64,000 bases of DNA from Alphaproteobacteria bacterium (GTDB lineage Bacteria; Planctomycetota; Phycisphaerae; UBA1845), in NCBI GenBank assembly GCA_028285105.1, contig JANQQE010000011.1, forward strand, positions 124,001 to 188,000, read 5' to 3'. Every line of letters begins with the position of its first letter. Position 1 is the stretch's first letter. Positions 8,236 to 27,821 of this stretch are shown here, piece after piece. A model generated the notes under the pieces. The model did no database searches, was not told the origin of the DNA, and saw only the letters and a program-made list of their open reading frames with translations. The translations under genes were made by a program, and so were the position numbers.

Positions 8236-11200
8236 ATGTTGAATTTGTTTAAGAACAATTCGGAGACGATTCACAATCGCGTAGGCGGGCTTTCAAAACT
8301 CTGCGCGGTTGCAGCCGTAACGATTAGCGCCAGCGTCTCGTTCGGCCAGATTGCGACTTCGTTGGTCAATGAGGGCGACGAAGTCGATTCCAATGGTTTC
8401 CCTGGAGACAACATTGGGACCATCAACAACGTTGCGGTCAACAACATCGGCGGGTGGGCGACAACGCTAAATGCCGGTACGACCAGTCATATTTATGGTT
8501 CCGTCGATGGAATCGCGCCGGCTGGCATCATCTTCAGTGAAACCACGGAAGGGCCATTGGTTCAGACAAGCTTTGAGTCACGGTTCGGTATCAGCGACTT
8601 TGGCGATGTTTGTTATAGCGCGTCAGGAAACGGTGGTCCGGATGGCGGGTTCGACTCGGCGTGGGTCAACACCATTGGTTTCGCAATTGAAGGTGCTGAA
8701 ATCACGACGGGGCCACTGGCTGGGTTGTTCTGGTCGTTCGCTTCAGCGCCAACGATGAATGCGAATGGGGTGGGATACTTCTCCGGTGGAACGCGCACAA
8801 CGGTGGGCGGTGGTACGTCAGCCCGCGGTCTGTGGGGGACCGACAGCGAGACCCCGATTCTTTATTCGGGCGATGAATTGCCGGGACTTCCAGCGCCGAT
8901 CGACGGGGGAAGCAGCATCGACTTCAGTTACAAGTTCTCGCGCTTTGGTAGTGCCTACATCCTTGATGGCATCATGGAAACGACCGGAACTGGTCTTCCG
9001 AGCGGCGAAGATCACGTCGTTATCATGGATGGCGCCGGACTATTTCTAGATGGTCAACTGGTTCAAGAGGGAATGATCGTTCCTGTGGCTATTGGCGGCG
9101 ACGGGGCAGAGGAGTGGGGGAGCGGTTTCGATTTCTTCGGCGTCAGCGACATGGGCGAGTATCTTTTTACCGGAGATACCACCGGAGACATATCCAGTGA
9201 CGAGTACCTGGTGTTGAATGGTGCAATTCATCTTCGAGAAGGTGACACGCTTGGCGTTGACACGCTCAGCGGAGCCATCGAAGCAGCTGACATGAATAAC
9301 AATGGTGACTGGGCTGTCGTCTGGCAGATTAGCGGTGTCGGCACATCACTGGTTTACAACGACCAGGTTCTGCTCCGACTTGACGAACAAGTTGACTTCA
9401 ATGGCGACGGCGTCATTGATGCGGGCGACAATGGCGCGACCGTCGATGACTTTGAAGTGTTTACGAATGCGTTGGCTGTTAGCGATCGCGATGCGTCTGG
9501 CAACGTTTCGATTTATCTTCCTCTCGATGTTGATCCCGATGGGCCGGGCGGTTCTTCGACACTTCAGGAAGGTGTCTATAAGATCACCGTGTCGGAACCG
9601 GCAGGTCCCTCTGGCGACCTGGAACTGGTTGTGGTTGACAGTCCGGATCCGCAGGTCAATGTTCCTGGCGATATCGCCTACGCAGTGAAAGTGCGAAACA
9701 ACAGCGATACGGCGATCACTGGCGTGACGGTCACCAGCAATCTCGACGGCGGGCTGACGTTCGATGCCGGTGCTTCCGATGCAATCGCCGTTCATGCTGC
9801 CGGAGTTGTCACTGCCAACCTTGGCACAATCGATGCCAATGCGGTACGCACGTACAAGTTCGTAGCCAATGCGGCGGTCGCTGGTGTTTACACCACAACG
9901 TCGAGCGTCACGGGCGGAGCCGTTGACAGTGTTCCCGGCAATAACGACGCGACAAACGAGACAGAAGTAGGCAAGAAAGCGGACGTTTCAATTCTGATTA
10001 CCGACAGTCCCGATCCGTTGACCGAACCGGGTGGCGCGATCGCATACACGCTGGATATTCTCAACGATGGTCCCTCCAGCGCAACCAACGTCGTCGTCAC
10101 AATGAACCTCGATCCGACAACGACCTTTAATGCCGGTCTGTCCGATCCGGCAGCCATTCATGCGGCTGGCGTGGTCACGATTAACGTGGGCACACTCGCG
10201 AACGACGAAGCGGCCAGTTTTGATGTGGTGGTCAATGTGACAGTGCAGGGTACGATCAGCGTTGACGCTTCAGTGGCAGCCACCGAATCAGATGAGGTTC
10301 CTGCGAACAACAGCGATGCGGAAGATACGCTGTTCCAGTTGACGACCGATCTGGTAATGACCATTTCAGATGCGCCCGATCCGGTGCTTCCTGTGGGCGG
10401 ACAGATCACTTACGACGTTTCGGTCGACAATGATGGTCCTTCCGACGCGACGGGCGTAACTGCCAGCGTCACGTTGGATGACAGCGTGATTGTTTCATCG
10501 GTCGATGCGCCGGGCGTGCATGACGGTTCGCCGTTTGGCGGTGTCGTGACATATGCGATTGGCAGTGTTCCGGCCAACAGCAACGGATTGACTGCGTCGA
10601 TTGTGGTTGATACGACCGAAGTTGGTCGGCCGGTCTGTACGGGTACGACTTCCGGTGGTGGATTTGAGACCGATCCCGACTTGGTCAATAACGATGCGTT
10701 GGTCAATACGTTGGTGATCGACGATGCAAGCGGACTGTCGGTTGGCATTTATTCGAACATTGCCAGCAGTCCAACATCGGATGTTCCAGGGTTGCCTGGC
10801 GCTAAGTTCGGTAGCGGTGTTGACCGTCCGTTCCGCAGCCCGGATGGCAAGTTGTGGGTACTCTCTGCCGACACCGATCTGGGAACAGCGGTTGACGAAG
10901 TCATCATCGTGGGCGACTTCTGCACGAGCGGTGTCCAAATTCAAGAAGGCACGACGACACTCGATCAGGGCGATCAGGTTGGTTTTATCGATCAGGATCT
11001 TTCCATCAACGATGCCGGCCTGTTTGCTTTTGCGACGAATACGAATAACTCTTCGTCTGCGGATGAGGTCATTGTTCGGTCAGATGGCTCAACGCATGTT
11101 GTGATTGCCCGCGAGGGCAGCATCTCGCCTGCGACGGGAGGTAACTACGGTTCCATTCTTGCAGCCGCCAACATTGTCTCTGACAACACGGTTTGGTTCG

Positions 11201-12393
11201 ATGCCGATACAACATTGTCTTCGGCGATGGACCGCTTCCTGCTGAGCAAGAACGGCGTGATTGTTGAAGCGCAGGAAGAGGTCACTGTGCCAACCGGTCA
11301 GGCGGGCGGCGGCACCGATCCGATCAAGGGATTCGTCACCGGAAGCATGCGGGTTGATGCGACTGGAAACAACTTCATTTACATTGGCGATACGAATGGC
11401 GACACCAGTACTGACGAGATGATTGTCGTCAATAATCAGGTCGTTGTGCAGGAAGGTTCAATCATCGCCGGTTCCGGTTTTGCTTCTCCGGCAGACATTG
11501 GTTTTGGCACGGAAGTCTTCATGTCAGCCGACGGTGGCTGGGTTGCACGCGGATCGAACTTTGACGGAAACGACTGGGTGCTTCGTGACGGTGGAGTCTT
11601 GTCTGCAACGGGTGATCCGATCGTTTCCGGAGCAGTGGAATCCTTTGACGATGCACCGTTCAGTGAGGGTTTCTTTATCGTCGCTCAAAACAACGCAGGC
11701 GATTACATCATTGGTTCGAGTACCAGCGCATCCGAGTCAGCGTCGAATTCGGTCCTTACTCTGAATGGCGAAGTTGTGATTGCCCGCGAAGGCGACCCGG
11801 TGGACCTCGACGGCAATGGGCTGGTTGATGACGGAATCCGTATCCGCTCATTCAGCGATGACGATTTGATCCTGACGGAAGACTTGCAGGCTTATGTCCC
11901 GGTCACGTTGCGCGATTTCAATGACGATGGTTCCAATTCGGACATTGGCGATGCGTTCATTCGCTTTAACCTGTGCGGTTTGGCGGGTCCATGCGGTGAT
12001 CTGGATAACGACAAAGATGTCGATGGCGACGACTACGACATCTTCGTCATGGCGTTTGGCACGACGACTTGCGATGCGTCGTACTCGGTATGTGCCGACT
12101 TCGATGAGGACGGCGTGGTGACGCATGTGGACTATCAGCAGTGGTTGCTTTGCTACCGTGACTTTGTCGGTAATCCGTTGGCATCCCCGCCAGTCACGAT
12201 CATGGGAGATTTCGATCGTGACGACGACGTTGACCTGAGCGACTTCGCTGAGTTCCAGACATGTGTGGGGGCGCAATCAGATAGCGTTCCTTGTCGTGCC
12301 CGCTTCGACTTCAATGAGGACAGTGTCGTAACGTTGCTCGATGCCGGCGGACTGACCGACGTGATGACCGGTCCTTCGGTTTCAAATAACTGA
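8236..12393 (+). CDS. Large secreted protein: NxxGxxAF-type repeats, three DUF11 domains, dockerin-like tail
   Basis: A 1385-residue exported protein. A signal peptide (about residues 1-37) has the hydrophobic run LCAVAAVTISASVSFG. Residues about 40-455 and 835-1250 contain repeated units with short NxxGxxxF motifs (NDAGLFAF, SDMGEYLF, NNAGDYII), each often followed by a DExxV..EG(D/S) pattern, as in a beta-propeller-like repeat. Between them are three DUF11 domains (about 460-580, 582-700, 704-830), each beginning D-x-x-DSPDP or DAPDP and ending near VPxNND. The last 130 residues hold two Asp-rich dockerin-like segments, including DNDKDVDGDD and DRDDDVDLSDF. GAGGG lies eight bases before the ATG. 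The function is unknown; a surface structural or adhesive role is plausible. It stands directly before the PEP-CTERM gene on the same strand. Confidence 0.85.
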   Translation: MLNLFKNNSETIHNRVGGLSKLCAVAAVTISASVSFGQIATSLVNEGDEVDSNGFPGDNIGTINNVAVNNIGGWATTLNAGTTSHIYGSVDGIAPAGIIFSETTEGPLVQTSFESRFGISDFGDVCYSASGNGGPDGGFDSAWVNTIGFAIEGAEITTGPLAGLFWSFASAPTMNANGVGYFSGGTRTTVGGGTSARGLWGTDSETPILYSGDELPGLPAPIDGGSSIDFSYKFSRFGSAYILDGIMETTGTGLPSGEDHVVIMDGAGLFLDGQLVQEGMIVPVAIGGDGAEEWGSGFDFFGVSDMGEYLFTGDTTGDISSDEYLVLNGAIHLREGDTLGVDTLSGAIEAADMNNNGDWAVVWQISGVGTSLVYNDQVLLRLDEQVDFNGDGVIDAGDNGATVDDFEVFTNALAVSDRDASGNVSIYLPLDVDPDGPGGSSTLQEGVYKITVSEPAGPSGDLELVVVDSPDPQVNVPGDIAYAVKVRNNSDTAITGVTVTSNLDGGLTFDAGASDAIAVHAAGVVTANLGTIDANAVRTYKFVANAAVAGVYTTTSSVTGGAVDSVPGNNDATNETEVGKKADVSILITDSPDPLTEPGGAIAYTLDILNDGPSSATNVVVTMNLDPTTTFNAGLSDPAAIHAAGVVTINVGTLANDEAASFDVVVNVTVQGTISVDASVAATESDEVPANNSDAEDTLFQLTTDLVMTISDAPDPVLPVGGQITYDVSVDNDGPSDATGVTASVTLDDSVIVSSVDAPGVHDGSPFGGVVTYAIGSVPANSNGLTASIVVDTTEVGRPVCTGTTSGGGFETDPDLVNNDALVNTLVIDDASGLSVGIYSNIASSPTSDVPGLPGAKFGSGVDRPFRSPDGKLWVLSADTDLGTAVDEVIIVGDFCTSGVQIQEGTTTLDQGDQVGFIDQDLSINDAGLFAFATNTNNSSSADEVIVRSDGSTHVVIAREGSISPATGGNYGSILAAANIVSDNTVWFDADTTLSSAMDRFLLSKNGVIVEAQEEVTVPTGQAGGGTDPIKGFVTGSMRVDATGNNFIYIGDTNGDTSTDEMIVVNNQVVVQEGSIIAGSGFASPADIGFGTEVFMSADGGWVARGSNFDGNDWVLRDGGVLSATGDPIVSGAVESFDDAPFSEGFFIVAQNNAGDYIIGSSTSASESASNSVLTLNGEVVIAREGDPVDLDGNGLVDDGIRIRSFSDDDLILTEDLQAYVPVTLRDFNDDGSNSDIGDAFIRFNLCGLAGPCGDLDNDKDVDGDDYDIFVMAFGTTTCDASYSVCADFDEDGVVTHVDYQQWLLCYRDFVGNPLASPPVTIMGDFDRDDDVDLSDFAEFQTCVGAQSDSVPCRARFDFNEDSVVTLLDAGGLTDVMTGPSVSNN

Positions 12394-12507: not shown

Positions 12508-13092
12508 ATGCTGCAACGACGTAAACCTGTTATGGGGGCGATGGCGACCGCAATGGTTGCTGGCGTCCTGCTGGGGCCAGCGCCTGCAGACGCTACGGTG
12601 GTCGTATCGCTTTCACCGGCAAACCAGGTCGTACCCCTCGTCGATGGGACTGCGACCGTGGATATTGTCGCGGTCATTCCAGAGGCTGACGCCATTGTCG
12701 GTTGGGGGTTGGACCTCGACCTTTTCGGCACGAGCGTGTCGGTGTCGGGTTCGGCAATCAACGAACCAACCTGGACGGCAGTGAGCGGTGTCGATGGCGA
12801 TGGTTTGGCTGGCTTGGTTCCGACGCCTCCCGGTACGGCGATTTGGAGCGACCCGGTGGCCATCGTGCTGGCGACAGTGACATTGTCGCTGGACGAACTG
12901 GGTACGACCGATTTGACGCTGAGCGACGACAATCCTGCCGATCTTTCGGAAGGCTTCGCGCTCGATCCGCCACCGGTTGGTGCATTTGCTGACGTCTCGT
13001 ATCAGCCCGGTTCGATTACTGTGATACCCGAACCTGCCTGCCTGATGCTGTTGATGCTGGGCGGGGCAGCTTGCGTGTCGCGCCGTCGCTAA
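12508..13092 (+). CDS. PEP-CTERM sorted protein with cohesin-like body
   Basis: A 194-residue exported protein with a signal peptide (about 1-30, ending PAPADA). A single domain of about 135 residues follows, then a textbook PEP-CTERM tail: VIPEP, a hydrophobic stretch LMLLMLGGAACV and the end SRRR. This tail is recognised by exosortase, which cuts it and leaves the protein at the surface or in the matrix. The body begins with VVSLSPANQVV and TATVDIVAVIPEA. It continues with IVLATVTLSL and ends SYQPGSITV. That layout resembles the cohesin beta-sandwich, including the final strand. The cohesin resemblance is by eye only. A ribosome binding site AGGAG is in place before the ATG. It is flanked by genes for dockerin-tailed proteins. 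Confidence 0.8.
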   Translation: MLQRRKPVMGAMATAMVAGVLLGPAPADATVVVSLSPANQVVPLVDGTATVDIVAVIPEADAIVGWGLDLDLFGTSVSVSGSAINEPTWTAVSGVDGDGLAGLVPTPPGTAIWSDPVAIVLATVTLSLDELGTTDLTLSDDNPADLSEGFALDPPPVGAFADVSYQPGSITVIPEPACLMLLMLGGAACVSRRR

Positions 13093-13465
13093 GCGGTGAT
13101 GTTGTATTTTTGCAGATTCGCTTGGCATTGATCGCGTCTAGTATGCGCGAAAGTTTTTTGGGTGACGTATGTTGATTTGCGAGCGTACCCATATGACATG
13201 CTGAACAACTTGCGGTGCCCGACGTGCCGATACACCTCGGTTGTCGGGCACTGCAACGATTGTTTCATCAATGACTCTCGCATCGCAGGAATCAGCGATA
13301 GGTTTCATTGTTTAGACACACTTGTTATTTGCCCACCGTTACGCATTCGCGGATTGTCATGCCAACGACAAACCGATTGATCACACTCGCTGGACGGAAT
13401 CACCATCACAACCTGAATCTGCGCCAAAAGTGCGTTGCGCGATTTCCCTGAGGAGTCAAATCGAC
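13093..13465 (+). other. Leader of the subtilase gene with a strong hairpin
   Basis: This 373-base gap has no convincing gene. GTGCCCGAC (13215-13223) and GTCGGGCAC (13243-13251) form a perfect stem that extends outward to 13211/13255 with one G-U pair. The loop can form an inner CCGA/TCGG stem. There is no T-tract. It may be a regulatory leader structure or an operator. A short frame through it has CxxC pairs but is probably fortuitous. Confidence 0.4.
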
Positions 13466-16400
13466 ATGCGGAATAAAGCAAATCGAACGTTCCAACGTAC
13501 AGTACTGTTGAGTACATTTGTCACAGGGTTCATCGCTGTCGGCGCTTCGGCAGGCGAGATTAAATGGCGTTCTGGAACATCTCGCTTGACGCAAGCCTCG
13601 GCACCGGAAACGGCGAACAAACTGGTAACGATGGTGCAGGCCCGCAGTGTGGAAGAAGCGACGCACGTTGTCGTGCAGTTTTCCAATCCGATCACCAAAA
13701 CGCAGAGAAACCAATTGCAGGCGGCTGGCGTTCGCTTGCTGAGTTATCTTGGCGACCATGCGTACTATGCCGTCGCGCAGCCGAATGCATTGGTTGAGCG
13801 AGACATCGCTCAGATCGCAACGTTGAGCAGCGTTACCGATGCTCAGCGTGATTGGAAGCTTCATCCGACATTTTTGCGAAATGAGTTGATGCCCTGGGCG
13901 GATGTGAACGGCGATCCAGCGATTTTTGAGAAAGACACTGAAGCCAAGGTGCGCATCGTCAGGCCCGAAGACGCCGACGCGATTCAGGTAACTGCCCACG
14001 TGTTGTTTCATCCCGACATCGATTTGGATCGGCAGGGGGCAGAAGTGTTGCGGCGGCATCGGGCTGTGATTGTGGGAACGATGCGAAGTGTCAACGGATA
14101 TTTGGTTGAACTACCCTATGCAGAAATTCCATCGCTCGCCGACGAGGATGCGGTACAGTATATCGAACCGCCGCTGCCCAGAATGTCCGAAGTCAACGAC
14201 AGCAACCGGGCCCGCACCGGATCGGACGTCGCCCAGGCAGTTCCCTATAACCTCAATGGTACAGGCGTGAAGGTGATGGTGTACGATGGGGGCAGTGCGC
14301 TCGCCAGCCATGCCGATTTCGGCGGCCGATTGGTCGCCCGTGATTCGTCAGGCCTGTCCGATCACGCCACGCACGTTTCCGGAACGATCGGAGGCGACGG
14401 TACGAACAGCGCCGGCACCAATCGCGGAATGGCCCCCGGCGTTACGATTGAGTCGTATGGATTCGAAACGGGCGGACCGTTGGAAGCCGGGTTCCTGTAC
14501 ACCAATCCCGGAGACCTGGAAGCCGACTATACCGAAGCGATCAACGTCTATGGCGTTGATATCTCGAACAACTCCATCGGTACCAATGTCGCCCCAAACG
14601 GTTTTCCCTGTGCGTGGGAAGGAGACTACAACGCGACGTCGGCGCTGATCGACGCGATCGTTGGCGGGAGTCTTGGTTCGCCGTTTCGCATCGTGTGGGC
14701 AGGCGGAAACGAACGCGGAAACGGTGGCTGCGGAGCCACCTACAACACCATCGCTCCACCTGCCGGCGCCAAGAACCATCTCTCGGTCGGGGCGCTGAAC
14801 AGCAATGACGATTCGGTGACGAACTTTACCGGGTGGGGGCCAACGGATGACGGCCGAATCAAACCCGACTTTGCTGCCCCCGGTTGCCAAACGGGTGGTG
14901 ACGGTGGGGTGACATCGTGTTCGAGCAGTGGTAACTACAACGTCAAATGCGGAACGTCGATGGCTTCACCGACGGTGTGCGGGATGGGCGCTCTCATTCT
15001 CGAAGATTTTCGTGCCAACAAACCGGGTGAACCGGACTTTCGTAATTCAACGCTCAAAGCTGTGCTGGCGCAAACAGCCGTCGATGTTGAGAATCCCGGA
15101 CCGGACTATCGAACGGGCTATGGATCGGTGCGCGTGGTTCCTGCGATCGATTTGATGCGGGCAGGCAACTTTCTGGAAGGCGAAGTCGAACAGGATCAGG
15201 TTGTTCAGGTCCTGGTCGTAGTCGATGCGCTGGATGCGCAGCTCAAAGTGACTTTGGCGTGGGACGATGTGCCGGGTACTCCGGCGGTCGATCCGACGTT
15301 GGTGAATGACCTCGACCTGCGGATCCTCGATGCCAACAGCAATGCGTATCTGCCGTGGACGCTCAATCCGGCTGTCCCGGCGAACAATGCGGTCAAGACG
15401 CAAGCCGATCATACCAACAACATCGAGCAGGTGGTCATCGATGCCCCGCCGCCGGGTGAGTATTTCGTGCAGATCACCGGCTTTAACATTCCGCAGGGGC
15501 CGCAGTCCTTTTCGCTGGCGGCTGAACCGCTGCTGATCAATTGCAGTCCACAGGGCGTGATTCGATTCGATCAGGAAAGCTACAATTGCGACAGTACCGC
15601 GACGATTTCGCTCAACGACTGCGACGTGAATACGAATGATCTGGAAATTGAAACGATCAATATCGTCGTTGTGTCCGACACCGAACCGGGTGGCGAAGTC
15701 ATTACCCTGACCGAAACCAGCTCGCAGTCAGCGAACTTCATCAGTACGGTTCCGTTAGCAATCACCGATGCGGCAGGGGTATTGCACATTGCAGAGGGCG
15801 ACTCGATTACGGCGAGCTACCTCGATGCGGATGACGGTTTTGGCAACACGAATGTTCTGGCTGAAGAGTCCGTCGGGATCGATTGCACTGCGCCGGTCAT
15901 AAGTGCCGTGTCGGCTGTCGATATTGATCCGCGAAGCGCGCGAATCGTATTCAACACAGACGAACCAGCCGTTGGCGTGGTGCGTTACGGAACCGATTGC
16001 GACGATCTGGTCAATGAGGTGGCGGCGATTGGGCTGAATACGTCGCACAGCATTGACATCGAAGGCCTTACCGATGACACGATGTATTTTTACGGCGCCG
16101 AAGCGACCGACCCAGCCGTCAACGTGGCGTTCGATACCAACGGGGCGGCTTGCTACAGCTTTACAACGCCGGAAATCCCCGACTACTTTACGGAAGACTT
16201 TTTGGCTGACTTCGATCTTGGCAACAGTGCGATATTGTATGCACCGAATGGCAGCGTCGATTTCTATAGTTCCTGTACCTTCGAAACATTGGTACTCCCG
16301 ACCGATCCTGCTGGGGGTACGCCGGTGGTTGTTTCAGATACGGGTTCGGTGGAGGTCAATCTTACAGATGGGGCGCAGGTGCATTTGTATGGTGTCTCAT

Positions 16401-19400
16401 ACAACACGGTTTACATCAATGCCAACGGAAACATCACGCTGGTCGGGCCGGACGACGATACGACCGAGACCTTCGATGAACATTTCGATCAACCTCGGAT
16501 ATCATTGTTGTATGACGATCTCGATCCGAGCGAAGGCGGCACGCTAAGCTACAAGCAACTCGCCGATCGTTTCGTCGTTACATGGCAGGACATTTCCGAA
16601 GATGGTGTTAACAACGACAACACGTTTCAGGTTGAATTGTATTACGACGGTCGCGTGCAACTTGCATGGCTGGGCATCGAGGCGAATGACGGCATCGTTG
16701 GGTTGTCGGCTGGTGGCGGTGTACCCGTCGACTTTTTCGAGTCCGATCTTTCAGCCGTCGGCGACTGCGGTCCACGTCCACCATCTGCGGCTGGGCGAAC
16801 GGTTATCGTTGGAGAAAGTCGAACGGCTGACATCGAACTTCTCGCCAGCGACGACGGGCTGCCTGAAATCCCCGGTGCAGTGAGTTATATCATATTGTCG
16901 CTGCCAAGCTACGAACTTCGCGATGCGGGCAACAATCACATCATCTTGCCCGGCGATCTGCCATACAAATTGGTCGGAGGTGGCAATGCCTTGATGTATA
17001 CGCCGACCAATGGTTTCCTCGGTCTCGATACGTTTGACTTCAAAGCAAATGACGGCGGGTCGCCACCGGATGCGGGTGACTCCAACACGGCGACGGTCAC
17101 GGTGCAGGTCGATCCGGTGTTGCAAGTACCTATCTTCGATTCGTTTCCGACGACCGAGTTCGATACCGGATTCTGGTCGGTCGTGTCGCTGGCTGGCATC
17201 GACGACGAGGGAATTGACGAACCGTCGCAACCGTACTCGGCGCGACTGAATGGATCGCCGGCAGGCGGTGACGAATTGCAAACGCACCTTGTCGATTTGA
17301 GCGGTGTCGGCGACGCTCGGTTGGTGTACTGGTTTGAGCGCACCGGCGATGGCGAAAGTCCGGACTCCGGAGACAACTTGCGGGTCGATTACGTGGATAG
17401 CAATGGCAGTTGGCAGTCGCTTCGCGAGTATGCTGGCGATGGCAACGACATGACCAGTTACCAGCGAGAAGACATCTTGCTTCCGTCCGCCGCATTGCAT
17501 GACAGTTTCCGTGCGCGTTTCAGAACGACCGGCACAGCGAGTGCCAACAATATCGACGATTGGTTCATGGACAACGTTTCGGTAACCCGTGGCGATGCGC
17601 CATTTGCCAATGACGTGTTCACTGAAGTGCGACAGGACGATACGGTTGACATTGCATTGGACGGTTCGGACCCGAATCTTGACATACTCGACTTTGTGAT
17701 CGTGTCGTTACCAGTTGGAGGCACGCTCAGCGATCCCAACGGTGGTGCGATCGAATCCCTCGATTTGCCGTATTCGCTCATGGGCAATCAAAACGTAGTG
17801 CGGTATCAGCGATCTGGTACTTTCCTCGGTCTGGATGCGTTTGCCTTCAGGGTCAACGATGGTACGTACGATTCGTTCGATGCGACGGTGAGCGTCGAGG
17901 TTCAGCCGCTGATCGAACTACCATTCGAGGATTCGTTCCCTGACTTCGTGTTCGATGCCCTGAAATGGGGCGATATCCTCGGTGCAACGATTGACGGCAA
18001 CGGTATCAACGAGCCAAGCCCGCCGAATTCCGCACGCCTAAATGGCAGTTCCTCGGTCGGTGACGAGTTGGTTTCGTTTCCGGTCAACCTCGAATCGCAG
18101 AGCGGTATTCGGTTGCGATATGCGTGGCAGCGGACCGGAGATGAGAATTCGCCTGAGGCCGGAGACGATTTGTTCTTCGACTACCTCGATACGAATGGTG
18201 TGTGGCAGAACTTCACGCAGCATCTCGGTGACGGTCCGGACATGACCGACTATGACGTGTCGGATGAATTGCTGCCGGCAGATGCGCTTCACGGAAATTT
18301 CCAACTGCGCATCCGCGTTTCCAGCAATGCCGGTGACGACTGGTTCGTCGATGACGTTAAGATCTATCATCCCGATGCGCCCACCGCCACGAGCCTCAGT
18401 ATTCTGGTCCGGCGATTCGGGTGGGCTGTGATCGATCTGGTTGCCAGCGACCCGACCGAAGACCCGTTGGACTATGCGATTCTGTCGCTTCCGGAGCAGG
18501 GCGAGTTGTACGACACGGGCGATGGTTCGCTAATCGCACCCGGCGCGCTGCCGCATGTGTTGTCTGGCGGTGGGAATCAAGTGCTTTATGCACCGCCGCT
18601 TGGGTATGAAGGCCATGAACAATTTACCTTCCGAGCCAATGACGGTGTGTTCGATTCGACACTGGGAATCATCTCGCTTCAGATCGGCGGACAGCAGCCG
18701 GTGCTGGACTTCCCACTCGATGTCGATCCGGGCTGGTCGACGGAGGGTCTTTGGGCATTCGGCGTACCGCAGGGCATTGATTTCGATCCGTTTTCCGGCG
18801 CGACCGGTACGAATGTTTACGGATACAACCTTGCTGGCAAATACGAAAGCAACCTGTCTCCGACGCATCTGACCACGCCGACGTTCGATCTGTCGTCGGT
18901 TCAAAATGCCGAGCTGCGATTTCAACGGTGGCTTGGCGTTGAAAGCAACTTCTTCGACCATGCGGCGATTGAGATTTCGGTGAATGGTATCGATTGGAAC
19001 GTTGTGTGGGAGCATACGGAAGTCGCGGGCATTTTCGATCGTGCGTGGATCCCACAAAGCATCGACATTTCGGGGGCGGCAGACGGTCAGTCGAACGTGC
19101 AACTTCGCTGGGTGATGGGCGCGACCGACGGTTCAGGTGAATTTGAAGGCTGGAGCATCGACGACATTCAGATATTCGGAGATGTCGTCGCAAGTCCGGG
19201 CGACATCGATACCGATGGCGATGTCGATGGTGCTGACCTGCGAGCGTTTGTCGCGTGCTTGGACGGACCCAATGCGTCGCCCGCACCACCATCGCCGATG
19301 CTCACGCAGGATTGTCTGGATGCATTCGATTTCGATGACGACAACGACATAGATCTGGCCGATTTCGAATCGTTCATCGAAGTGTATACGGGCAATTCAT

Positions 19401-19402
19401 AA
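13466..19402 (+). CDS. Giant secreted subtilisin-family serine protease with dockerin-like tail
   Basis: A 1978-residue exported protease of family S8. The ATG at 13466 is chosen because AGGAG lies ten bases before it and a signal peptide follows (TVLLSTFVTGFIAVGASAG). The catalytic domain spans about residues 260-560. It has Asp274 (VYDGG), His303 (DHATHVSGT), oxyanion Asn415 (AGGNERG) and Ser498 (CGTSMASP). After it come a P-domain-like jelly-roll, Ig or fibronectin-like parts (about 800-930), and two near-repeat modules. Each module pairs a MAM-like sandwich (GDDWF or IDDWF at the end) with a cadherin-like FRANDG-type domain. A last jelly-roll is about 1700-1900. The final 70 residues are a dockerin-like segment with DIDTDGDVDGADL and DDDNDIDLADF. 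The protein would act outside the cell on proteins. Its jelly-roll plus tail matches that of the convergent carboxypeptidase. Confidence 0.92.
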   Translation: MRNKANRTFQRTVLLSTFVTGFIAVGASAGEIKWRSGTSRLTQASAPETANKLVTMVQARSVEEATHVVVQFSNPITKTQRNQLQAAGVRLLSYLGDHAYYAVAQPNALVERDIAQIATLSSVTDAQRDWKLHPTFLRNELMPWADVNGDPAIFEKDTEAKVRIVRPEDADAIQVTAHVLFHPDIDLDRQGAEVLRRHRAVIVGTMRSVNGYLVELPYAEIPSLADEDAVQYIEPPLPRMSEVNDSNRARTGSDVAQAVPYNLNGTGVKVMVYDGGSALASHADFGGRLVARDSSGLSDHATHVSGTIGGDGTNSAGTNRGMAPGVTIESYGFETGGPLEAGFLYTNPGDLEADYTEAINVYGVDISNNSIGTNVAPNGFPCAWEGDYNATSALIDAIVGGSLGSPFRIVWAGGNERGNGGCGATYNTIAPPAGAKNHLSVGALNSNDDSVTNFTGWGPTDDGRIKPDFAAPGCQTGGDGGVTSCSSSGNYNVKCGTSMASPTVCGMGALILEDFRANKPGEPDFRNSTLKAVLAQTAVDVENPGPDYRTGYGSVRVVPAIDLMRAGNFLEGEVEQDQVVQVLVVVDALDAQLKVTLAWDDVPGTPAVDPTLVNDLDLRILDANSNAYLPWTLNPAVPANNAVKTQADHTNNIEQVVIDAPPPGEYFVQITGFNIPQGPQSFSLAAEPLLINCSPQGVIRFDQESYNCDSTATISLNDCDVNTNDLEIETINIVVVSDTEPGGEVITLTETSSQSANFISTVPLAITDAAGVLHIAEGDSITASYLDADDGFGNTNVLAEESVGIDCTAPVISAVSAVDIDPRSARIVFNTDEPAVGVVRYGTDCDDLVNEVAAIGLNTSHSIDIEGLTDDTMYFYGAEATDPAVNVAFDTNGAACYSFTTPEIPDYFTEDFLADFDLGNSAILYAPNGSVDFYSSCTFETLVLPTDPAGGTPVVVSDTGSVEVNLTDGAQVHLYGVSYNTVYINANGNITLVGPDDDTTETFDEHFDQPRISLLYDDLDPSEGGTLSYKQLADRFVVTWQDISEDGVNNDNTFQVELYYDGRVQLAWLGIEANDGIVGLSAGGGVPVDFFESDLSAVGDCGPRPPSAAGRTVIVGESRTADIELLASDDGLPEIPGAVSYIILSLPSYELRDAGNNHIILPGDLPYKLVGGGNALMYTPTNGFLGLDTFDFKANDGGSPPDAGDSNTATVTVQVDPVLQVPIFDSFPTTEFDTGFWSVVSLAGIDDEGIDEPSQPYSARLNGSPAGGDELQTHLVDLSGVGDARLVYWFERTGDGESPDSGDNLRVDYVDSNGSWQSLREYAGDGNDMTSYQREDILLPSAALHDSFRARFRTTGTASANNIDDWFMDNVSVTRGDAPFANDVFTEVRQDDTVDIALDGSDPNLDILDFVIVSLPVGGTLSDPNGGAIESLDLPYSLMGNQNVVRYQRSGTFLGLDAFAFRVNDGTYDSFDATVSVEVQPLIELPFEDSFPDFVFDALKWGDILGATIDGNGINEPSPPNSARLNGSSSVGDELVSFPVNLESQSGIRLRYAWQRTGDENSPEAGDDLFFDYLDTNGVWQNFTQHLGDGPDMTDYDVSDELLPADALHGNFQLRIRVSSNAGDDWFVDDVKIYHPDAPTATSLSILVRRFGWAVIDLVASDPTEDPLDYAILSLPEQGELYDTGDGSLIAPGALPHVLSGGGNQVLYAPPLGYEGHEQFTFRANDGVFDSTLGIISLQIGGQQPVLDFPLDVDPGWSTEGLWAFGVPQGIDFDPFSGATGTNVYGYNLAGKYESNLSPTHLTTPTFDLSSVQNAELRFQRWLGVESNFFDHAAIEISVNGIDWNVVWEHTEVAGIFDRAWIPQSIDISGAADGQSNVQLRWVMGATDGSGEFEGWSIDDIQIFGDVVASPGDIDTDGDVDGADLRAFVACLDGPNASPAPPSPMLTQDCLDAFDFDDDNDIDLADFESFIEVYTGNS

Positions 19403-19438
19403 GACTGAAACCTTGCCCGACTCAGGGGATTCACAAAA

Positions 19439-19469
19439 ATGGCGGTTGCGCGCAAGTCGCAACCGCCAT
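19439..19469. terminator. Hairpin terminator between convergent genes
   Basis: ATGGCGGTTGCG (19439-19450) pairs perfectly with CGCAACCGCCAT (19458-19469). On the minus strand it is followed by a run of T (TTTTTG), so it terminates the carboxypeptidase transcript and probably works in both directions. Confidence 0.8.
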
Positions 19470-19490
19470 GTTCGATTTCATGAAAGCATG

Positions 19491-21788
19491 TTACTCAGCC
19501 GCAGATTGAAACTGGGCAAAGTCGATCAAGTCCACATGGTTGTTATCATCGAAGTCCAGAATCGAGCATCCCGGAGGCGTCGAATCGACCGGTCCCTGCA
19601 CGCAATCTGGGAAAGCGGCTGCATCGCCGGCACTGACGATTGAATCGCCGTTGTAGTCACCCTTGGTCGCAACGCAGCCCTTCGAAAACAACACGATATC
19701 GTCGATATTCCAGCCCGGCAACGTATTCGAGCCGTCGGTCGCCCCCATTCCCCAACGCACATACACAGTCGGTTGATCGTCGGCAACGCTGGAAATGTCG
19801 AACGATTGCGGCGTCCATTCGGTATCGGTTTCGAAAATATTGTCGCTGATGTGATCGGCAGCGGCGGAATACACCTGTGTCCACTCCGTACCGTTGTTGC
19901 TGACCGAGACCGTTGCATCGTCGAAACCGAAAGCCGATTCGACCCCAAGCCATCGCCAGAATCGAAGTTCGACATCGAACTGTCCCGTACAGTCGATTGC
20001 TGTCGTCGTTAAATAGGTCGCCGGCAAGTTGTTGGTGTAATTGCCGTTCAGGTTATAGCCATAAACGTTGGCGCCCGTGTTGCCACTTGTCGGATCGCCG
20101 TTAAAGCTTCCACCGCCCGTTGGCACTCCCCACTCCCAATCGCCTTCCGTTGTCCAACCGGGATCGGTGTCGAGGTCTTCCTGATAGAACGGACCCACAG
20201 CCACCGGTGGATTGAACGGACCCAGTTCTGCCGGCGGGGGCAACGTCGAAACCGTACCCTGGTTGCTGTCTGCTGCGAAGTAGAACTCGGGAGTGGACGT
20301 GCAGTTGGTTGCGGGCAGCGTCGTTTCGTATCCATTGCTGCTGATCTGCGTCAGCATTACTTCGTTGTAAGGACTACTTGGATCGAAGCGATAGTACATC
20401 CGAGCCGTTCCCGCCGTGTAGTCTTCGTATTGCGAATTCACGGTAAGTTGCATTGGAAGATCGACGCCCGGAACAAGCACCTCAGGGATATCGGTTTCCA
20501 GGTCAATGATGACCGGAGAGCGCACGAAGTCGGTATTCGTCAGGTACAAGAGTGCGGGCGTGATCTCTTCGTTATTCGGTATGATTTCTTCAGGGTCCAG
20601 AATAAAGCCGGAACCGAACGGACCCGTTTCCGGACGCAACTCGAAACTGTATGCCAAAATGCCCAGTTGCGCATAAGCCCAATCGAGCGAATCGCCGTTG
20701 ACAGGATAGATCGTTTCGTTGATCGGGCCCGCATCGTAAGTCAATCCGTGGACGTTGAAGATGATATCCTGCATCGCAAGTCCATGTTCTCTGAAGAGAG
20801 CGTCATCCGGGCACAGGTCGGGAATGTATCCCCACGGCCAAAGAATGAGTTGTGTGAAACTGTGAATGTCCATCATCGTTCGGATATTTGGTTGGTTCAG
20901 CATCAAATCGCGCAAGGCAACGGTCTCGGGTTCGGAAAAAGGAAACGGTCCGCGGAATATGGAACTGCTGCCACTGCCGCTTGATCCGTCGTCGTCATAA
21001 CCCCAAGCTTCCCCCCAGTTGCGGTTGATGTCGACGCCGATGGTTCCGTTGGAGTTGATCGTGCGGGTCTTGCGCCAGAGACGATCATCGCTCCACGTGA
21101 ATGCAAACCCGTCGGGGTTGGCAACGGGGACGAGGAATATCTCTGTCTTGTTGACCATGTCGGTGACGATCGGGTCGGTTCCGTAATTCTCAAGAACATG
21201 CTTTGCGAAATAGGTGGGTGTTGTCGTCGTGACCCATTCGCGAGAATGCACGCAGGAGAAATACAATGCGCCTGGCTTGTTTCCTGGAAACGCATCGTTT
21301 GCCAATCGCAGGGCCCAGATGGTGCGACCCTCGCGGCTGGTCCCGATGTCGATCATCGAGGCGAGATTTGGGTAGCGGGTGACCAATTCGTTCATGAACC
21401 AGACAATGCTGCCAACCCCATTGTCGTACTCGTGATAGTCGAGGAAGAAATCGTTATAAGGATCGCCACCGCGAAGGGGGCTTGGTTGTCGTTCGGCGTC
21501 GAAAAGGGCTTGGGCGTTCTCGTGTTTGATGACTGTCGTGACGCCCATGGCCCGTATCGCGACGAGTTGTTCTTCGCTGGCAACGACGTCGAGGCTTCCT
21601 GGCGATGGGGCGCAATCAAGAACGACCGCCCCGGTGGCTTCAATGGCGGAAATCTGCTCGCGCGAAACGTCGTTGATATGAACAAAGCGATGGTTGCGAT
21701 ATTTGTCGGTTGCGCCGGCGCGTACATGGTCAGTCATGGCGCAAGTGGAAACCGCAATCACCAAGACGAAGCGCATCTTTCCAGACAT
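19491..21788 (-). CDS. Secreted zinc carboxypeptidase (family M14) with jelly-roll and dockerin-like tail
   Basis: A 765-residue exported metallocarboxypeptidase. It has a signal peptide (about 1-25), a propeptide-like region (about 30-110) and the M14 catalytic domain (about 115-430). Zinc ligands are His181 and Glu184 in HSREW and His309 in MMDIHSF; the catalytic Glu383 is in SFELRPETG. Substrate-carboxylate residues lie in VDINRNW. A fibronectin-like part follows, then a jelly-roll (about 545-700) with DPGWTTEGDWEWGVP. The final dockerin-like segment has DYNGDSIVSAGD and DDNNHVDLIDF. GGAG seven bases before the ATG supports the start. It would remove C-terminal residues from extracellular peptides, complementing the nearby subtilase with which it converges. 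Confidence 0.93.
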   Translation of the reverse strand: MSGKMRFVLVIAVSTCAMTDHVRAGATDKYRNHRFVHINDVSREQISAIEATGAVVLDCAPSPGSLDVVASEEQLVAIRAMGVTTVIKHENAQALFDAERQPSPLRGGDPYNDFFLDYHEYDNGVGSIVWFMNELVTRYPNLASMIDIGTSREGRTIWALRLANDAFPGNKPGALYFSCVHSREWVTTTTPTYFAKHVLENYGTDPIVTDMVNKTEIFLVPVANPDGFAFTWSDDRLWRKTRTINSNGTIGVDINRNWGEAWGYDDDGSSGSGSSSIFRGPFPFSEPETVALRDLMLNQPNIRTMMDIHSFTQLILWPWGYIPDLCPDDALFREHGLAMQDIIFNVHGLTYDAGPINETIYPVNGDSLDWAYAQLGILAYSFELRPETGPFGSGFILDPEEIIPNNEEITPALLYLTNTDFVRSPVIIDLETDIPEVLVPGVDLPMQLTVNSQYEDYTAGTARMYYRFDPSSPYNEVMLTQISSNGYETTLPATNCTSTPEFYFAADSNQGTVSTLPPPAELGPFNPPVAVGPFYQEDLDTDPGWTTEGDWEWGVPTGGGSFNGDPTSGNTGANVYGYNLNGNYTNNLPATYLTTTAIDCTGQFDVELRFWRWLGVESAFGFDDATVSVSNNGTEWTQVYSAAADHISDNIFETDTEWTPQSFDISSVADDQPTVYVRWGMGATDGSNTLPGWNIDDIVLFSKGCVATKGDYNGDSIVSAGDAAAFPDCVQGPVDSTPPGCSILDFDDNNHVDLIDFAQFQSAAE

Positions 21789-22747: not shown

Positions 22748-23593
22748 TTTCAGCGGCCCTTAGGGGTTGAATCGGACCAGCCGTATTTTCAGATTAGATG
22801 AACGTGTTTGGGAACGAAAAAAACTGGCATTTGTATACACCCGCACTGCATCCGTTCAGGAATAATTAAGGCCGCACTTTGGGCCAATTGCGAGTGAGGG
22901 GGTAGGTGCATAGAAGTATGGTGGCGATAATCCATGCGTTCCGAGAGCCGAAAACGCATTTGTCTTAGCACGATTGGTGAGGCGAGTGTGTCTTAGAATT
23001 GATCCGACATCGGTTCGAGGCCTTGCATTTTGATATGGGCAAAATACCCCATCCTTGAAATGGGCCAGCATCTCGACGACCGTCGAATTGCGATGAAGGC
23101 GCCTACAACGACTACCAGAAGACAACATCGGCATGGTTCTAACGTCGCAATCGCCGAACTCAGCAAGACGATTGTTCAAAGACTGCTGAATTCTTGGTCG
23201 AGAATTCACTGAATTCAAGATCGTCTGCGCCCGTACACTCCGATAACGATTCGGCTAAATGGCGGTTCCCTTTATTCTTATGGGCGGACGCCAAACTTGA
23301 GCAATACCCAAGCGGTTTGGACGAATTAATTCTAATCACACCTCCGTCGCGTACCGAAAGATCACTTAACCAGAACAAGAATTCGCACGTCTGAAATCGT
23401 ATGTCAGTGGAATTGTGATAACGAAGTTCAAACGCGCGTCGCATTCTGGAATACGGTTGATTGAGATTTGACGCAGCGACCGTCAACAAGAATTCGATAC
23501 GTCGGCTGTCATTTGAGTAGGCGCCTTGGTTCGATGAGATTTACATTCGTTCGCGTCGTCATCGGGTTGTGGCAAGAAACCTTGGAATCGCGG
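22748..23593. other. Gene-poor region of about 850 bases
   Basis: Only short, unconvincing open frames are present, none with a good ribosome binding site or a recognisable family. Several GAATTC sites cluster around 23188-23217. It separates the divergent PilZ and chemoreceptor genes, so both promoters should lie here. Confidence 0.5.
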
Positions 23594-23609
23594 TGGCTCG
23601 GCCGTTGCC
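23594..23609 (+). promoter_or_regulatory. Candidate sigma-54 promoter of the chemoreceptor gene
   Basis: TGGCTC-GGCCG-TTGCC matches the -24/-12 consensus TGGCAC-N5-TTGC at all but one core position, with the GG and GC dinucleotides exactly ten bases apart. Transcription would start near 23620, about 20 bases before the ATG. No activator site was identified. Confidence 0.4.
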
Positions 23610-23640
23610 AGTTCACCCACTAGTGCAAAGAGAGAGATCA

Positions 23641-25479
23641 ATGGCGAGACAAACCAAGACCACAAAAAAGTCGGTGAACAAGAGCAGCAACTCGGGCAAG
23701 ATGTTCCAGAGAATGGTCGAAGACACGCCGGCCAACATCATCTTGGCCGACAAAGACTTCAACATCACCTACGTCAATCCGGCGACCATCAAGAACCTGA
23801 CGCCCCTCGCGCATTTGCTGCCGATCCCGATCGAGGCTTTGGTGGGGACCAACATCGACGCATTCCACAAGGATCCGGCGCATCAGCGGCGAATTTTGAG
23901 CAATCCCAGCAATCTTCCATACAAAGCTCCGATCCAGCTTGGCGACCGGAAGTTGGAACTCATGGTGAATGCTGTTTACGACGAGAAGGGCGATGTTGCC
24001 GGGACGATGGTCACCTGGGACTTTATCGATGCTGAAAAGATTCGACTCGAAGAGTTGGCACAAGACAATGCGGGAAAACTCGCAGCAATCGGCCGTGCGC
24101 AAGCCGTCATCGAATTCGACCTCGACGGCACCATTCGCGAGGCCAACGACAACTTCGTCAACGCCTTGGGATACACGCACGATGAAATCAAGGGCCGTCA
24201 CCACAGCATGTTCGTTGAAGACTCACATCGGCAAAGCCACGAATACACCGAGTTGTGGGCGTCGTTGAATCGTGGTGAATTTAGAGCAGGTGAATTCAAA
24301 CGCATTGCCAAGGGCGGCAAAGAGATTTGGATACAGGCTTCTTACAACCCGATTCTCGACCTCGAAGGTAAGCCGGTCAAGGTCGTCAAATATGCCACTG
24401 ACGTCACTGCGCAAGTGATCGCCCGCGACGAAATCGGGAATCTGATCAAGACCGCGCTTGATGGCGACCTCACTGCGAGCGCAGACACGTCACGCCTCGA
24501 AGGCGAATTCCACGACATGGTGGAAAATGTCAACAAACTGGTTTCCAAACTTTGCGATACCATGCTTCAGGTTTCAAGTGCCGTTGAACAAATCGACGAC
24601 GGTGCATCGCAGGTGACGGGATCGAGCCAGCAGTTGTCCGAAGGTGCCAGCGAGCAAGCCGCATCTCTTGAAGAAACATCGTCATCGCTTGAAGAGATGG
24701 CCGCCATGACCCGCACCAACGCAAGCAACGCAGCACAGGTCAACGATTTGTCCGGATCGGCACGCGACGCGGCAAACGAAGGCGATCAGACCATGGGCCA
24801 ACTCAATCAGGCCATGTCGGATATCAATGCGTCATCCGAGAAAATCAGCAAGATCATCAAGGTTATCGAAGAGATTGCGTTCCAGACCAACCTGCTTGCT
24901 CTTAACGCAGCCGTCGAAGCGGCTCGTGCGGGTGAACATGGTAAGGGATTCGCCGTCGTCGCCGACGAGGTTCGCAATCTAGCTCAGCGAGCAGCCCAGG
25001 CGGCTGGCGAAACAACCAGTCTGATCGACGAGTCGGTCAAGAAAGCTCAGGAAGGTACGACCGTCGCAACAAGTGTGGGCCAAGCCCTGACGTCGATCGT
25101 CGAGCAGATCAACAAGGTATCGGATCTCGTAGACGGCATCTCGAAAGCTTCTGATGAGCAGGCCCAAGGCGTCGATCAGGTCAACACTGCCGTTACGCAG
25201 ATGAACACCGTAACGCAGCAGAATGCGGCTGGTTCTGAAGAATTGGCTGCGGCGGCTGAAGAAATGTCGTCACAAGTCGCATGCCTGCGAGAGATGATCG
25301 GACAATACAAGTTGGCAGAGGGTGGAACCAGTCAAAGCGCTCAAGGTTTCGCCGGTCAGAAGTTTGCCAATCAATCACGAATGACACAATCGCCTGGGCG
25401 ACAGCCGGTCGGGGCTGGCGCTGGTGCGAGCGACAGCGATTTCTTACCCATGGGGGACGATGACCTGTCGTCATTCTAA
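23641..25479 (+). CDS. Soluble PAS-PAS methyl-accepting chemotaxis protein
   Basis: A 612-residue cytoplasmic chemoreceptor with no membrane segments. The first PAS domain is about residues 20-130, with [13 protein letters not shown]. The second is about 150-260, with [14 protein letters not shown] and [13 protein letters not shown] helical linker follows (about 260-330). The signalling domain (about 340-560) contains the conserved hairpin tip [21 protein letters not shown] and [17 protein letters not shown]. Methylation-helix regions flank it. The ATG at 23641 is chosen over an upstream one because GAGAG precedes it and the N-terminus [10 protein letters not shown] is hydrophilic. It sits before cheW. 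It would sense an internal signal such as redox or a small ligand and control CheA through CheW. The cofactor of the PAS domains is unknown. Confidence 0.95.
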
Positions 25480-25518
25480 TCGCGTTGACCGAATCAGTAT
25501 CTCGGTATCAACGTGTCG

Positions 25519-25570: not shown

Positions 25571-25633
25571 ATGTTTGGCCGACCCCTGTATGTAGGCCGC
25601 ATCAAAAATCGCTTAAGACGAGGTTACCGCAGC

Positions 25634-26192: not shown

Positions 26193-27545
26193 TTACGGGA
26201 CGAGCCTCTCTGCGAATTCTACGAAGTCGGCCAGGTCAACGTCGCTACCGCCGTCAAAGTCGAACGCTTCAATACAATTGGCTTGTGTGACGCCCGGCAG
26301 CAAGGGGTTCGGGGCAATTCCAGGACCGTTGGCACAGTCCGCGAAGTATTCAAAATCGTTCAAGTCTACGTCACCGTCGCAATCCCAATCGCCCAAACAT
26401 GGAAGTGGCGGATCGATCAGATATCGCAAGATGTCAGGCATTCGAATTGCCCAGTAGAACTCGTTGTGCATGTGGTTTTGAGCCTCGACGGATAGAAGAT
26501 CATTACCTTCGACAAACCCCTGTCCAATTGCAATGTCACGCATTGCCCGCAGATTGGCGATTCCCGATTCAGCCGTACCCATGTCCTGGTAAAAACGACT
26601 CAATTCGTCGGGTTTCGACGCGGTGACTGCATGGCTGAGTATTTGTTGGCCTGACCACCAATAGGATGGGGATACGCCCGCGATCCGACCCCAGACATCA
26701 TCGTATTCGTAACCAGCGTAGACCGAGATCAAACCGCCCAGCGACGAACCGGCCATGTAGGTTTTCGCGTGACCCGATTGGGTGCGGTAGCGCAGATTGA
26801 CTTCTGGAATCAGAATATCCCGGATGGCTTGAAGGTATCCATCGCCACCGCCACCGCATCCGAATGCGTTGTCGGCCCACGGGGTGTATTCGTCACATCG
26901 TGAACTGCTGTTTTCGACACCGACCACGATGATCGGTTCGATCTCGCGGTTGCCAATGAGCGATTCGCAAGCTTCGTCCACCTGCCATTCGCCCGCAAAG
27001 CTGGTCGCCTCATCGAAGAGGTTCTGTCCGTCATGCATGTACAGTACGGGGTAGCTGTCGGAACTCTCGAAGTAATCGGGCGGCAGGTAGACCCAGCAGC
27101 GGCGACCACCCAAAAAGGGAGCGAACACAAACGACTCGACGTGGCCGGTGATTGTCGATGGCTGAATGTCAGCCCAGTTTGCAACGACGTGGTTGATGGT
27201 CTCGGTGCCCTGAGGCGTGTGTACGCGGTTGGGGATTTCCTCACCGGTCGATCCCTTCTCAACCGTCTGCCAACTTCCTCGTGTGAACTTGTACTGAATG
27301 GGTATGGCGTCTGGCAGGCTGAGCGTGATTTCCCAGGAACCATCTGTCTGCTCCGTGAGCGCGTAAGCGGGATCGCCCGGGTTCCAGCTTTGAAAGTCGC
27401 CTGCTATGTAGATCAAGTCCCCCGATGGTGTGGAATCGGGAACTTCCACTCGAATGGTAATCGTCGCACCTATAGCAATTTCAGTGACAAAAAAGAAAGT
27501 CATGAAGGACGCAATAACAAAGGGGAAGGACACGGAACGGCGCAT
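26193..27545 (-). CDS. Secreted esterase with N-terminal carbohydrate-binding-like domain and dockerin-like tail
   Basis: A 450-residue exported hydrolase. A signal peptide (1-27) is followed by an Ig-like domain (about 28-125) resembling CBM20/CBM48 starch-binding modules, with YIAGDFQSWNPGDP. The esterase domain (about 130-380) belongs to the enterochelin-esterase / esterase D group. It has YMHDGQNLFD, nucleophile Ser268 in GSSLGG and probable catalytic His360 in HNEFYW. The final 65 residues are a dockerin-like tail with DWDCDGDVDLNDF and GGSDVDLADF. The start has GGAG seven bases upstream. It may remove acyl groups from polysaccharides or other esters outside the cell; the substrate is inference. 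It faces cheW tail to tail. Confidence 0.9.
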   Translation of the reverse strand: MRRSVSFPFVIASFMTFFFVTEIAIGATITIRVEVPDSTPSGDLIYIAGDFQSWNPGDPAYALTEQTDGSWEITLSLPDAIPIQYKFTRGSWQTVEKGSTGEEIPNRVHTPQGTETINHVVANWADIQPSTITGHVESFVFAPFLGGRRCWVYLPPDYFESSDSYPVLYMHDGQNLFDEATSFAGEWQVDEACESLIGNREIEPIIVVGVENSSSRCDEYTPWADNAFGCGGGGDGYLQAIRDILIPEVNLRYRTQSGHAKTYMAGSSLGGLISVYAGYEYDDVWGRIAGVSPSYWWSGQQILSHAVTASKPDELSRFYQDMGTAESGIANLRAMRDIAIGQGFVEGNDLLSVEAQNHMHNEFYWAIRMPDILRYLIDPPLPCLGDWDCDGDVDLNDFEYFADCANGPGIAPNPLLPGVTQANCIEAFDFDGGSDVDLADFVEFAERLVP

Positions 27546-27821
27546 GATCGAACTCCGATTCAAATGGTACTGACCGATGGACCCAAGAATTATAGCACAC
27601 GTAGCCGCAAATGCAGTTGTACAGGTGGTTGCAGGGTGTTGATTACGGATCATTGGATGAGCCCTTCACCGGTGCGATTCGTCGAGAAGTTTGCAACGAT
27701 GCAGGAAGTGGTTGGGGAGAAGCCAAGACGACTACTCGGGCTTTTTGCCGGGAATCCAATCAAGGAGCCGTGAAACGCACCCTGCATTTTCATGCAAAAG
27801 ACAAGATCGAACGGCTGCTGG
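27546..27821. other. Gap between esterase and carbonic anhydrase genes
   Basis: No convincing gene. It must hold the esterase promoter (minus strand). The carbonic anhydrase promoter is annotated just after it. Confidence 0.4.

Follow-up and report, generated by a model that had tools for sequence, protein, structure and literature searches.

A shuffled peptidase cassette and a candidate surface cohesin-dockerin pair at one locus of a Phycisphaerae genome

In a stretch of 64,000 nucleotides from contig JANQQE010000011.1 (assembly GCA_028285105.1, positions 124,001 to 188,000; hereafter the window), two convergent genes, coding for a secreted subtilase (peptidase family S8) and a secreted zinc carboxypeptidase (family M14), end in what appears to be the same cassette, a jelly roll followed by a dockerin-like tail, which raises the question of where the cassette came from, what it accompanies and what its dockerin might plug into. 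The window belongs to a genome of 4.8 Mb that is 97.8% complete (G000; contigs are labelled C, loci L and other genomes G), and its closest named relatives are metagenome-assembled genomes of Phycisphaerae, UBA1845 among them; the relatives searched comprised 40 genomes, G000 included. Our data suggest that the locus combines an accessory cassette of peptidases with a dedicated surface pair of cohesin and dockerin, a reading that we consider probable on balance.

The two cassettes resemble each other over the entire jelly roll and the dockerin-like tail, with 48% identity over 231 amino acids (aa; BLASTP, E 3e-52) and a local alignment score of 505 against a maximum of 68 among 500 shuffles (mean 39.9, sd 6.5). 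The preliminary description of this DNA had proposed a common cassette from a few short motifs, and the likeness extends well outside those motifs; its naming of the two enzymes likewise agrees with their Pfam matches (Table 1). Each cassette consists of a jelly roll of approximately 160-170 residues and a tail with two full calcium-loop patterns. At the DNA level only patches of approximately 70-74% identity are left, and the two genes share the base at 15 of the 39 fourfold sites that lie in identical residues, so the relation between the cassettes is old and does not reflect a recent copy.

Five near-complete jelly rolls are present in G000, two in the window and one each at C1:557020, C10:581561 and C34:28051. 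The carboxypeptidase cassette shares 53% identity with its neighbour and 54, 50 and 55% with the three other copies, while three congeners possess orthologues of the M14 cassette (81-86% identity), a subtilase cassette lying beside each one, and the congener orthologues of the S8 cassette reach 87% identity. In a tree of 55 jelly rolls, from which the duplicate locus L113 (identical to L100) was omitted (a second tree also omits two distant first jelly rolls), the window cassettes fall into separate clades, each with its own orthologues at 100% bootstrap. The duplication or exchange between convergent neighbours that had been put forward for this pair is not supported by these comparisons. A local duplication, or gene conversion from one gene to the other, would explain an identity of 48% that runs across the whole cassette, and constraining both window cassettes into one clade was not rejected (p 0.22); set against this, identity to the other genomic copies is equally high, the orthologues of both cassettes occupy the same place in the congeners, the tree sets the two apart and agreement at fourfold sites is low, and we regard a local origin as highly improbable even though the forced clade passes. 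Judged from the same constrained tree, a very old exchange between two neighbouring cassettes is possible. A constrained tree with the M14 cassettes as a single lineage was rejected (p 0.002), and the jelly-roll tree calls for no fewer than 12 switches of catalytic family, so the jelly roll must have moved repeatedly between catalytic domains. Its best match has E < 1e-30 in 28 of the 40 genomes.

The catalytic domains that accompany the jelly roll are almost exclusively peptidases. Pfam scans place all five own-genome copies on peptidases (three S8, one M14 and one trypsin-type S1), as they do for 38 of 40 open reading frames (ORFs) from relatives, a non-random set that we chose from the better-scoring matches and some further loci and that covers S8, M14, S1, C1, gingipain-type C25 and M28. 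Apart from these scans, L154 was called S1 from its position beside L119, and the labels of L093-L095 come from a motif or from orthology. The two exceptions are L151, a protein of the peptidyl-arginine-deiminase family, and L132, the first 900 residues of which gave no Pfam match; the Pfam scan of a further jelly-roll ORF, L139, was also without a match. In L151 (G032) the jelly roll of the peptidases is thus found on a Porphyromonas-type peptidyl-arginine deiminase, and the gingipain-type C25 peptidases that carry it are those at L125, L127, L144, L145 and L153. ORFs with the cassette mostly end in dockerin-like tails, L147 having a hydrophobic, anchor-like tail instead. A nearby esterase (26193-27653) and the DUF11 protein upstream in the window have dockerins, and no jelly roll was found in either. 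The suggestion that the cassette is the shared targeting part of an enzyme set can thus be kept and sharpened, to a jelly roll that is nearly restricted to peptidases and was repeatedly recombined, once the exchange between neighbours is removed from it. That the cassette is an old, shuffled and peptidase-specific accessory module is well supported, and as a finding it is modest; the jelly roll may serve as a marker for finding surface proteases.

The fold of the jelly roll was approached through an AlphaFold2 (AF2) model of the carboxypeptidase cassette, which is weak (predicted local distance difference test, pLDDT, 62.6) and whose best matches, to be read at that low confidence, are reelin repeats (Z 9.1), ligand-binding domains of Eph receptors and MAM-type domains of the peptidases immune inhibitor A2 (4yu6_B, VIA-align Z 8.6; 4yu5_A, Foldseek E 7.8e-5), enteropeptidase and meprin. 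The closest profiles, which also occur on peptidases, are the NCBIfam choice-of-anchor J family (choice_anch_J, NF038128; 29.5 bits for the whole subtilase and 27.1 for its cassette, cut-off 30) and the MAM-like domain of immune inhibitor A (PF20773; 16.3 bits, cut-off 26.9), and the M14 cassette gave no match to NF038128. Since both curated cut-offs are missed, the jelly roll in the window forms a separate branch. We read it as a putative MAM-like accessory domain of peptidases, which probably holds the substrate or steadies the catalytic domain. The subtilase contains two more jelly-roll-like domains (17102-17611 and 17882-18421; 48% mutual identity, E 2e-50), which alternate with Big_9 domains and resemble the C-terminal jelly roll only remotely.

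The tails are dockerin-like in a form that the standard models score poorly. With Pfam PF00404 the subtilase, the carboxypeptidase and the upstream protein obtain 12.7, 16.9 and 14.5 bits, all under the cut-off of 22.9, while other genes of G000 do reach this model (27 matches at E ≤ 0.001); the window tails scanned with the GC-type dockerin model NF041540 (cut-off 29 bits) gave no match, and the S1 cassette on C1 scored 9.1 bits. Calcium-loop patterns of 12 residues are found twice in the S8 tail, twice in the M14 tail and four times in the upstream protein. In total G000 has approximately 134 dockerin genes, nearly all of a generic type that our profile A5 describes and to which both peptidase tails belong.

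A candidate receptor is encoded ahead of the subtilase and behind the gene of the DUF11 protein, by an ORF of 194 aa (12508-13092) in which Pfam finds nothing besides a PEP-CTERM motif. The cohesin family PF00963 gives no match to it at E ≤ 10 and no cohesin at E ≤ 1 across the whole of G000, and a PDB sequence search with the ORF returned nothing. The AF2 model built from 12 sequences (pLDDT 75.5; predicted template modelling score 0.70) has a predicted cohesin fold: Foldseek ranks 1-32 against the PDB are all cohesins (best E 2.2e-6), the best VIA-align Z is 11.5 (rmsd 2.8, 126 aligned), and a non-cohesin protein comes next among the structural matches (Z 9.2). The predicted beta sandwich resembles cellulosomal and other solved cohesins (5n5p_C, 4uyp_A, 2vo8; Z 11.3-11.5), from which it differs in sequence (9-15% identity) and in that no multi-cohesin scaffold is seen at the window locus. 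Profile-profile comparison with the Pfam-recognised cohesins of relatives returned a probability of 45% (E 2.2e-4), where two control profiles reached 0.3% and 0.1%. The PEP-CTERM signal scores 17 bits with TIGR02595 (cut-off 16) and, with PF07589 (cut-off 20.7), 21.9 bits in a genome search and 17.8 in a protein scan, and a single exosortase is encoded in G000 (PF09721, E 4.1e-54). The protein is probably a single cohesin and a putative cell-surface receptor anchored by the exosortase. Cohesins of this kind, which we designate A1, number exactly two in G000 at E < 1e-15 (C4:136541 and C35:176761, the ORFs measuring 198 and 193 aa), and no scaffoldin with several cohesins was found in this genome, where Pfam finds no cohesin and both A1 cohesins lie in small ORFs. 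Pfam cohesins are present in 20 of the 40 relatives, and cohesin-dockerin systems are therefore at home in this group. One such Pfam cohesin, from a congener (L195; G004 C267), lies in an ORF of 228 aa whose C-terminus is a hydrophobic anchor; it is a candidate generic receptor and was not found in G000.

The partner of the A1 cohesin is suggested by the gene directly upstream, which carries two dockerins at its end. The first belongs to a subtype (A6; profile of 12 rows, with an invariant Trp and Tyr past the second loop) that has exactly two matches in G000 at E ≤ 1e-9, C4:135992 at the window locus and C35:177673. Each adjoins one of the two A1 cohesins of the genome, and among the own-genome ORFs scanned the two score 94.8 and 86.9 bits, the next best being 22.6. 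Of the 23 A1 loci in the 40 genomes, 17 are accompanied by an A6 dockerin on the same strand, no more than 1 kb away and ahead of the cohesin, a count that is partly circular as 11 of the 17 paired loci contributed rows to the A6 profile; at three of the six unpaired loci (G009 C14, G009 C123 and G018 C710) a contig end cuts the upstream side. A class-wide search found A1 in 32 of 397 genomes, and at the 20 loci outside the first 40 genomes (30 were returned, the remaining 10 belonging to genomes already used) an A6 dockerin precedes the cohesin by at most 600 bp, on its strand, in 13 cases, and lies downstream or on the other strand in none. The two also co-occur, A6 being present in 12 of 13 genomes with A1 and in 7 of 27 without (Fisher p 1e-4), or in 8 of 9 against 7 of 27 when four congeners are removed (p 0.0015), p-values that serve as guides only because the genomes are related. 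The proteins that carry A6 vary from the DUF11 protein of the window and a subtilase on C35 to GEVED-, MAM- and FG-GAP-containing proteins elsewhere, and it is therefore the dockerin and not one protein family that accompanies the cohesin. From this conserved gene order we infer that A6 would be the cognate dockerin of the A1 cohesin. At one locus of G039 (L108) three two-gene units stand in tandem, each made up of a large ORF with a terminal A6 dockerin and an A1 cohesin behind it.

Table 1. Features of the window discussed in the text. The A5 profile has 15 rows, the subtilase and carboxypeptidase tails among them.
Feature	Coordinates	Strand	Remarks
Secreted protein upstream of the putative cohesin	8236..12393	+	NxxGxxAF repeats, three DUF11, two terminal dockerins
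A6-subtype dockerin	11992..12171	+	E 1.4e-28; 94.8 bits
Generic (A5-like) dockerin behind the A6 dockerin	12205..12390	+	
Putative surface protein with predicted cohesin fold	12508..13092	+	Signal-peptide-like start, one cohesin-like domain, PEP-CTERM signal 13024-13089
Secreted subtilase ending in the cassette	13322..19402	+	2026 aa by first start; Peptidase_S8 E 5.8e-34, three Big_9
Subtilase cassette	18716-19399	+	End of ORF 13322-19402
Predicted MAM-like jelly roll of subtilase cassette	18716..19195	+	
Generic dockerin-like tail of subtilase	19196..19399	+	Two calcium-loop patterns; A5 profile E 2.8e-22
Secreted zinc carboxypeptidase (M14) ending in the cassette, convergent with subtilase	19491..21788	-	Peptidase_M14 E 6.5e-77
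Carboxypeptidase cassette	19494-20174	-	End of ORF 19491-21788
Predicted MAM-like jelly roll of carboxypeptidase cassette	19665..20174	-	
Generic dockerin-like tail of carboxypeptidase	19494..19664	-	Two calcium-loop patterns; A5 profile E 1.5e-24
Esterase with CBM_20 starch-binding domain and generic dockerin	26193..27653	-	PF00756 E 4.7e-23; CBM_20 E 2.8e-6; A5 E 3.1e-22 at C4:150202 (window 26202)

Several observations weigh against a dedicated docking system at this locus. Of the 33 PEP-CTERM genes in G000, 14 have a dockerin gene at most 500 bp away, in every case on their own strand, whereas the expectation is 0.41 and 2000 random placements yielded 4 at most (dockerins: 149 hits minus 11 weak ones, plus two from another search; PEP-CTERM: 44 hits minus ten under the family cut-off and one ORF of 2368 aa; gene ends were estimated from open-frame lengths, and the random genes were placed on 16 of 36 contigs), and most of these dockerin-adjacent PEP-CTERM proteins carry other, non-cohesin domains. 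The two window peptidases bear the generic dockerin and not A6, and the roughly 134 dockerin genes have no assigned receptor in a genome where the Pfam cohesin model finds nothing. A6 dockerins are found in seven of the 27 genomes without A1 (G031, G033 and G008 have A6 and no clear A1), and by a simple pattern none of 25 inspected A6 hits, out of 39 that do not adjoin an A1, has a PEP-CTERM ORF directly downstream. The cohesin model itself rests on 12 sequences, its five versions ranging in mean pLDDT from 75.5 down to 51.2, and a shared predicted fold is not the equivalent of a binding test.

Part of this could mean that the genes are mere neighbours, secreted-protein genes tending to cluster, with the jelly roll and the dockerin as ordinary shuffled domains and the cohesin-fold protein unrelated to dockerins. 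The frequent adjacency of largely non-cohesin-like PEP-CTERM genes to dockerin genes fits such clustering, as do the 2 of 13 tested dockerin/PEP-CTERM pairs that are paralogues with alternative anchors, yet clustering leaves unexplained why only A6, on 2 of approximately 134 dockerin genes, adjoins the two cohesins, why the order is fixed in 13 of 20 independent loci and never reversed to downstream, and why A1 and A6 co-occur across genomes; we hold it to be unlikely. Still less likely, in our estimation, is that the dockerin-like tails are calcium-dependent folding or export tags for a sorting machine and the cohesin-fold protein a co-inherited adhesin or matrix protein. The large excess of dockerin genes over two A1 cohesins in a genome without Pfam cohesins, the genomes with A6 and no A1, and the non-cohesin protein that follows among the structural matches would suit such tags, whereas the Pfam cohesins in half of the relatives and the specific tracking of the A1 cohesin by A6 would not. 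Adjacency alone is a habit of G000 and no proof of binding, and the subtype specificity is the stronger evidence for a dedicated pair.

The adjacency itself may have several causes, such as alternative anchors, co-display or further lock-and-key pairs. That all dockerin-adjacent PEP-CTERM proteins are cohesins was rejected, the cohesin profile giving only chance-level scores on the 26 scanned (best E 0.01), and the neighbours seen at, for example, L167, L168, L172 and L175-L183 have diverse domains. Two PEP-CTERM proteins (C33:58352 and C35:41043) look cohesin-like by eye, the latter without a dockerin neighbour in the 10 kb read. At L169:4313-6421 (C33 of G000) a dockerin tail of repeat type, with two GDRQVVAQ motifs, ends an ORF that is followed by a PEP-CTERM protein that is cohesin-like by eye, possibly a second private pair.

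Taken as a docking locus, the following course of events can be proposed. The MAM-like jelly roll and a calcium-type dockerin would have reached unrelated peptidase families through domain shuffling, the cassette being kept at the window locus by descent. The small PEP-CTERM protein would act as a single cohesin that the exosortase fixes to the cell surface, and the A6 dockerin encoded immediately upstream as its cognate plug, clipping large secreted proteins to the surface. The adjacent cohesin as direct partner of the peptidase dockerins was considered and withdrawn, since their tails are generic A5 and the cohesin tracks A6. The peptidases may instead be held by another, generic receptor in a surface or extracellular complex, or their generic dockerins might bind the same cohesin more weakly. 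Subtilases with both A6 and a generic dockerin (G032 C71 and C35 of G000) hint at how the docking layers may join.

Cohesin and dockerin modules outside cellulosomes were reportedly described by Peer and colleagues in 2009. The cohesin of the window would differ from such modules in being missed by PF00963, in its connection to a PEP-CTERM signal and in a pairing that is read from gene order. Closer to our locus, PMC6461901 proposes a 'planctosome' in Nemodlikiaceae (Phycisphaerae), in which dockerin-binding M12B and M14 peptidases assemble on cohesin proteins anchored by a lamin tail; a cohesin-dockerin complex for proteolysis had therefore been conceived for this class before our work. Both systems come from the same class and include a dockerin-tailed M14 carboxypeptidase, the complex proposed there being non-cellulosic and protein-degrading; the planctosome, however, has a 2,210-aa lamin-tail anchor protein with P-domains and cohesin, an adaptor with dockerin plus cohesin, and M12B and M14 peptidases, whereas the window has a small PEP-CTERM protein with a predicted single cohesin, a dockerin subtype dedicated to it and a jelly roll specific to peptidases, six families of which carry it. 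PMC11557425 describes a planctomycete-group bacterium with a cohesin-dockerin-cohesin protein, PMC11840708 cites the planctosome, and PMC5244752 mentions dockerins, cohesins and exosortases in anaerobic methanotrophic (ANME) archaea and does not link them. In the literature collection searched, no work joined dockerin or cohesin with PEP-CTERM, and a single one mentioned dockerin together with exosortase. What surprises at this locus is the PEP-CTERM cohesin and the dockerin private to it, a candidate pair that may represent a new form of non-cellulosomal docking.

Genomes of this group encode more than 100 dockerin-tailed proteins without a known receptor. The conserved pair of cohesin and dockerin-subtype genes names a candidate receptor and ligand for the display of enzymes by planctomycetes, would link exosortase anchoring to cohesin-dockerin docking, and offers protein engineering, in A1/A6, a candidate for an orthogonal binding pair. 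As a wider conjecture, which we put forward tentatively and rate below the reading of the locus itself, planctomycetes of this order may display proteins through exosortase-anchored cohesins and dockerins: small PEP-CTERM cohesins that Pfam misses would form, together with a dockerin subtype private to them, an orthogonal two-gene lock-and-key pair, other PEP-CTERM/dockerin pairs might behave likewise, and the more than 100 generic dockerin proteins, with the jelly-roll peptidases, would make up a second and larger docking layer, a plug-in machine for surface proteolysis.

Two minor points concern the window itself. The start of the subtilase is likelier to be the Met codon at 13466, ahead of a signal-peptide-like stretch, than the first start of the ORF. 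Further along, at 23569-26131, an ORF resembling a methyl-accepting chemotaxis protein is followed by a CheW-like ORF, as read by eye from the translation.

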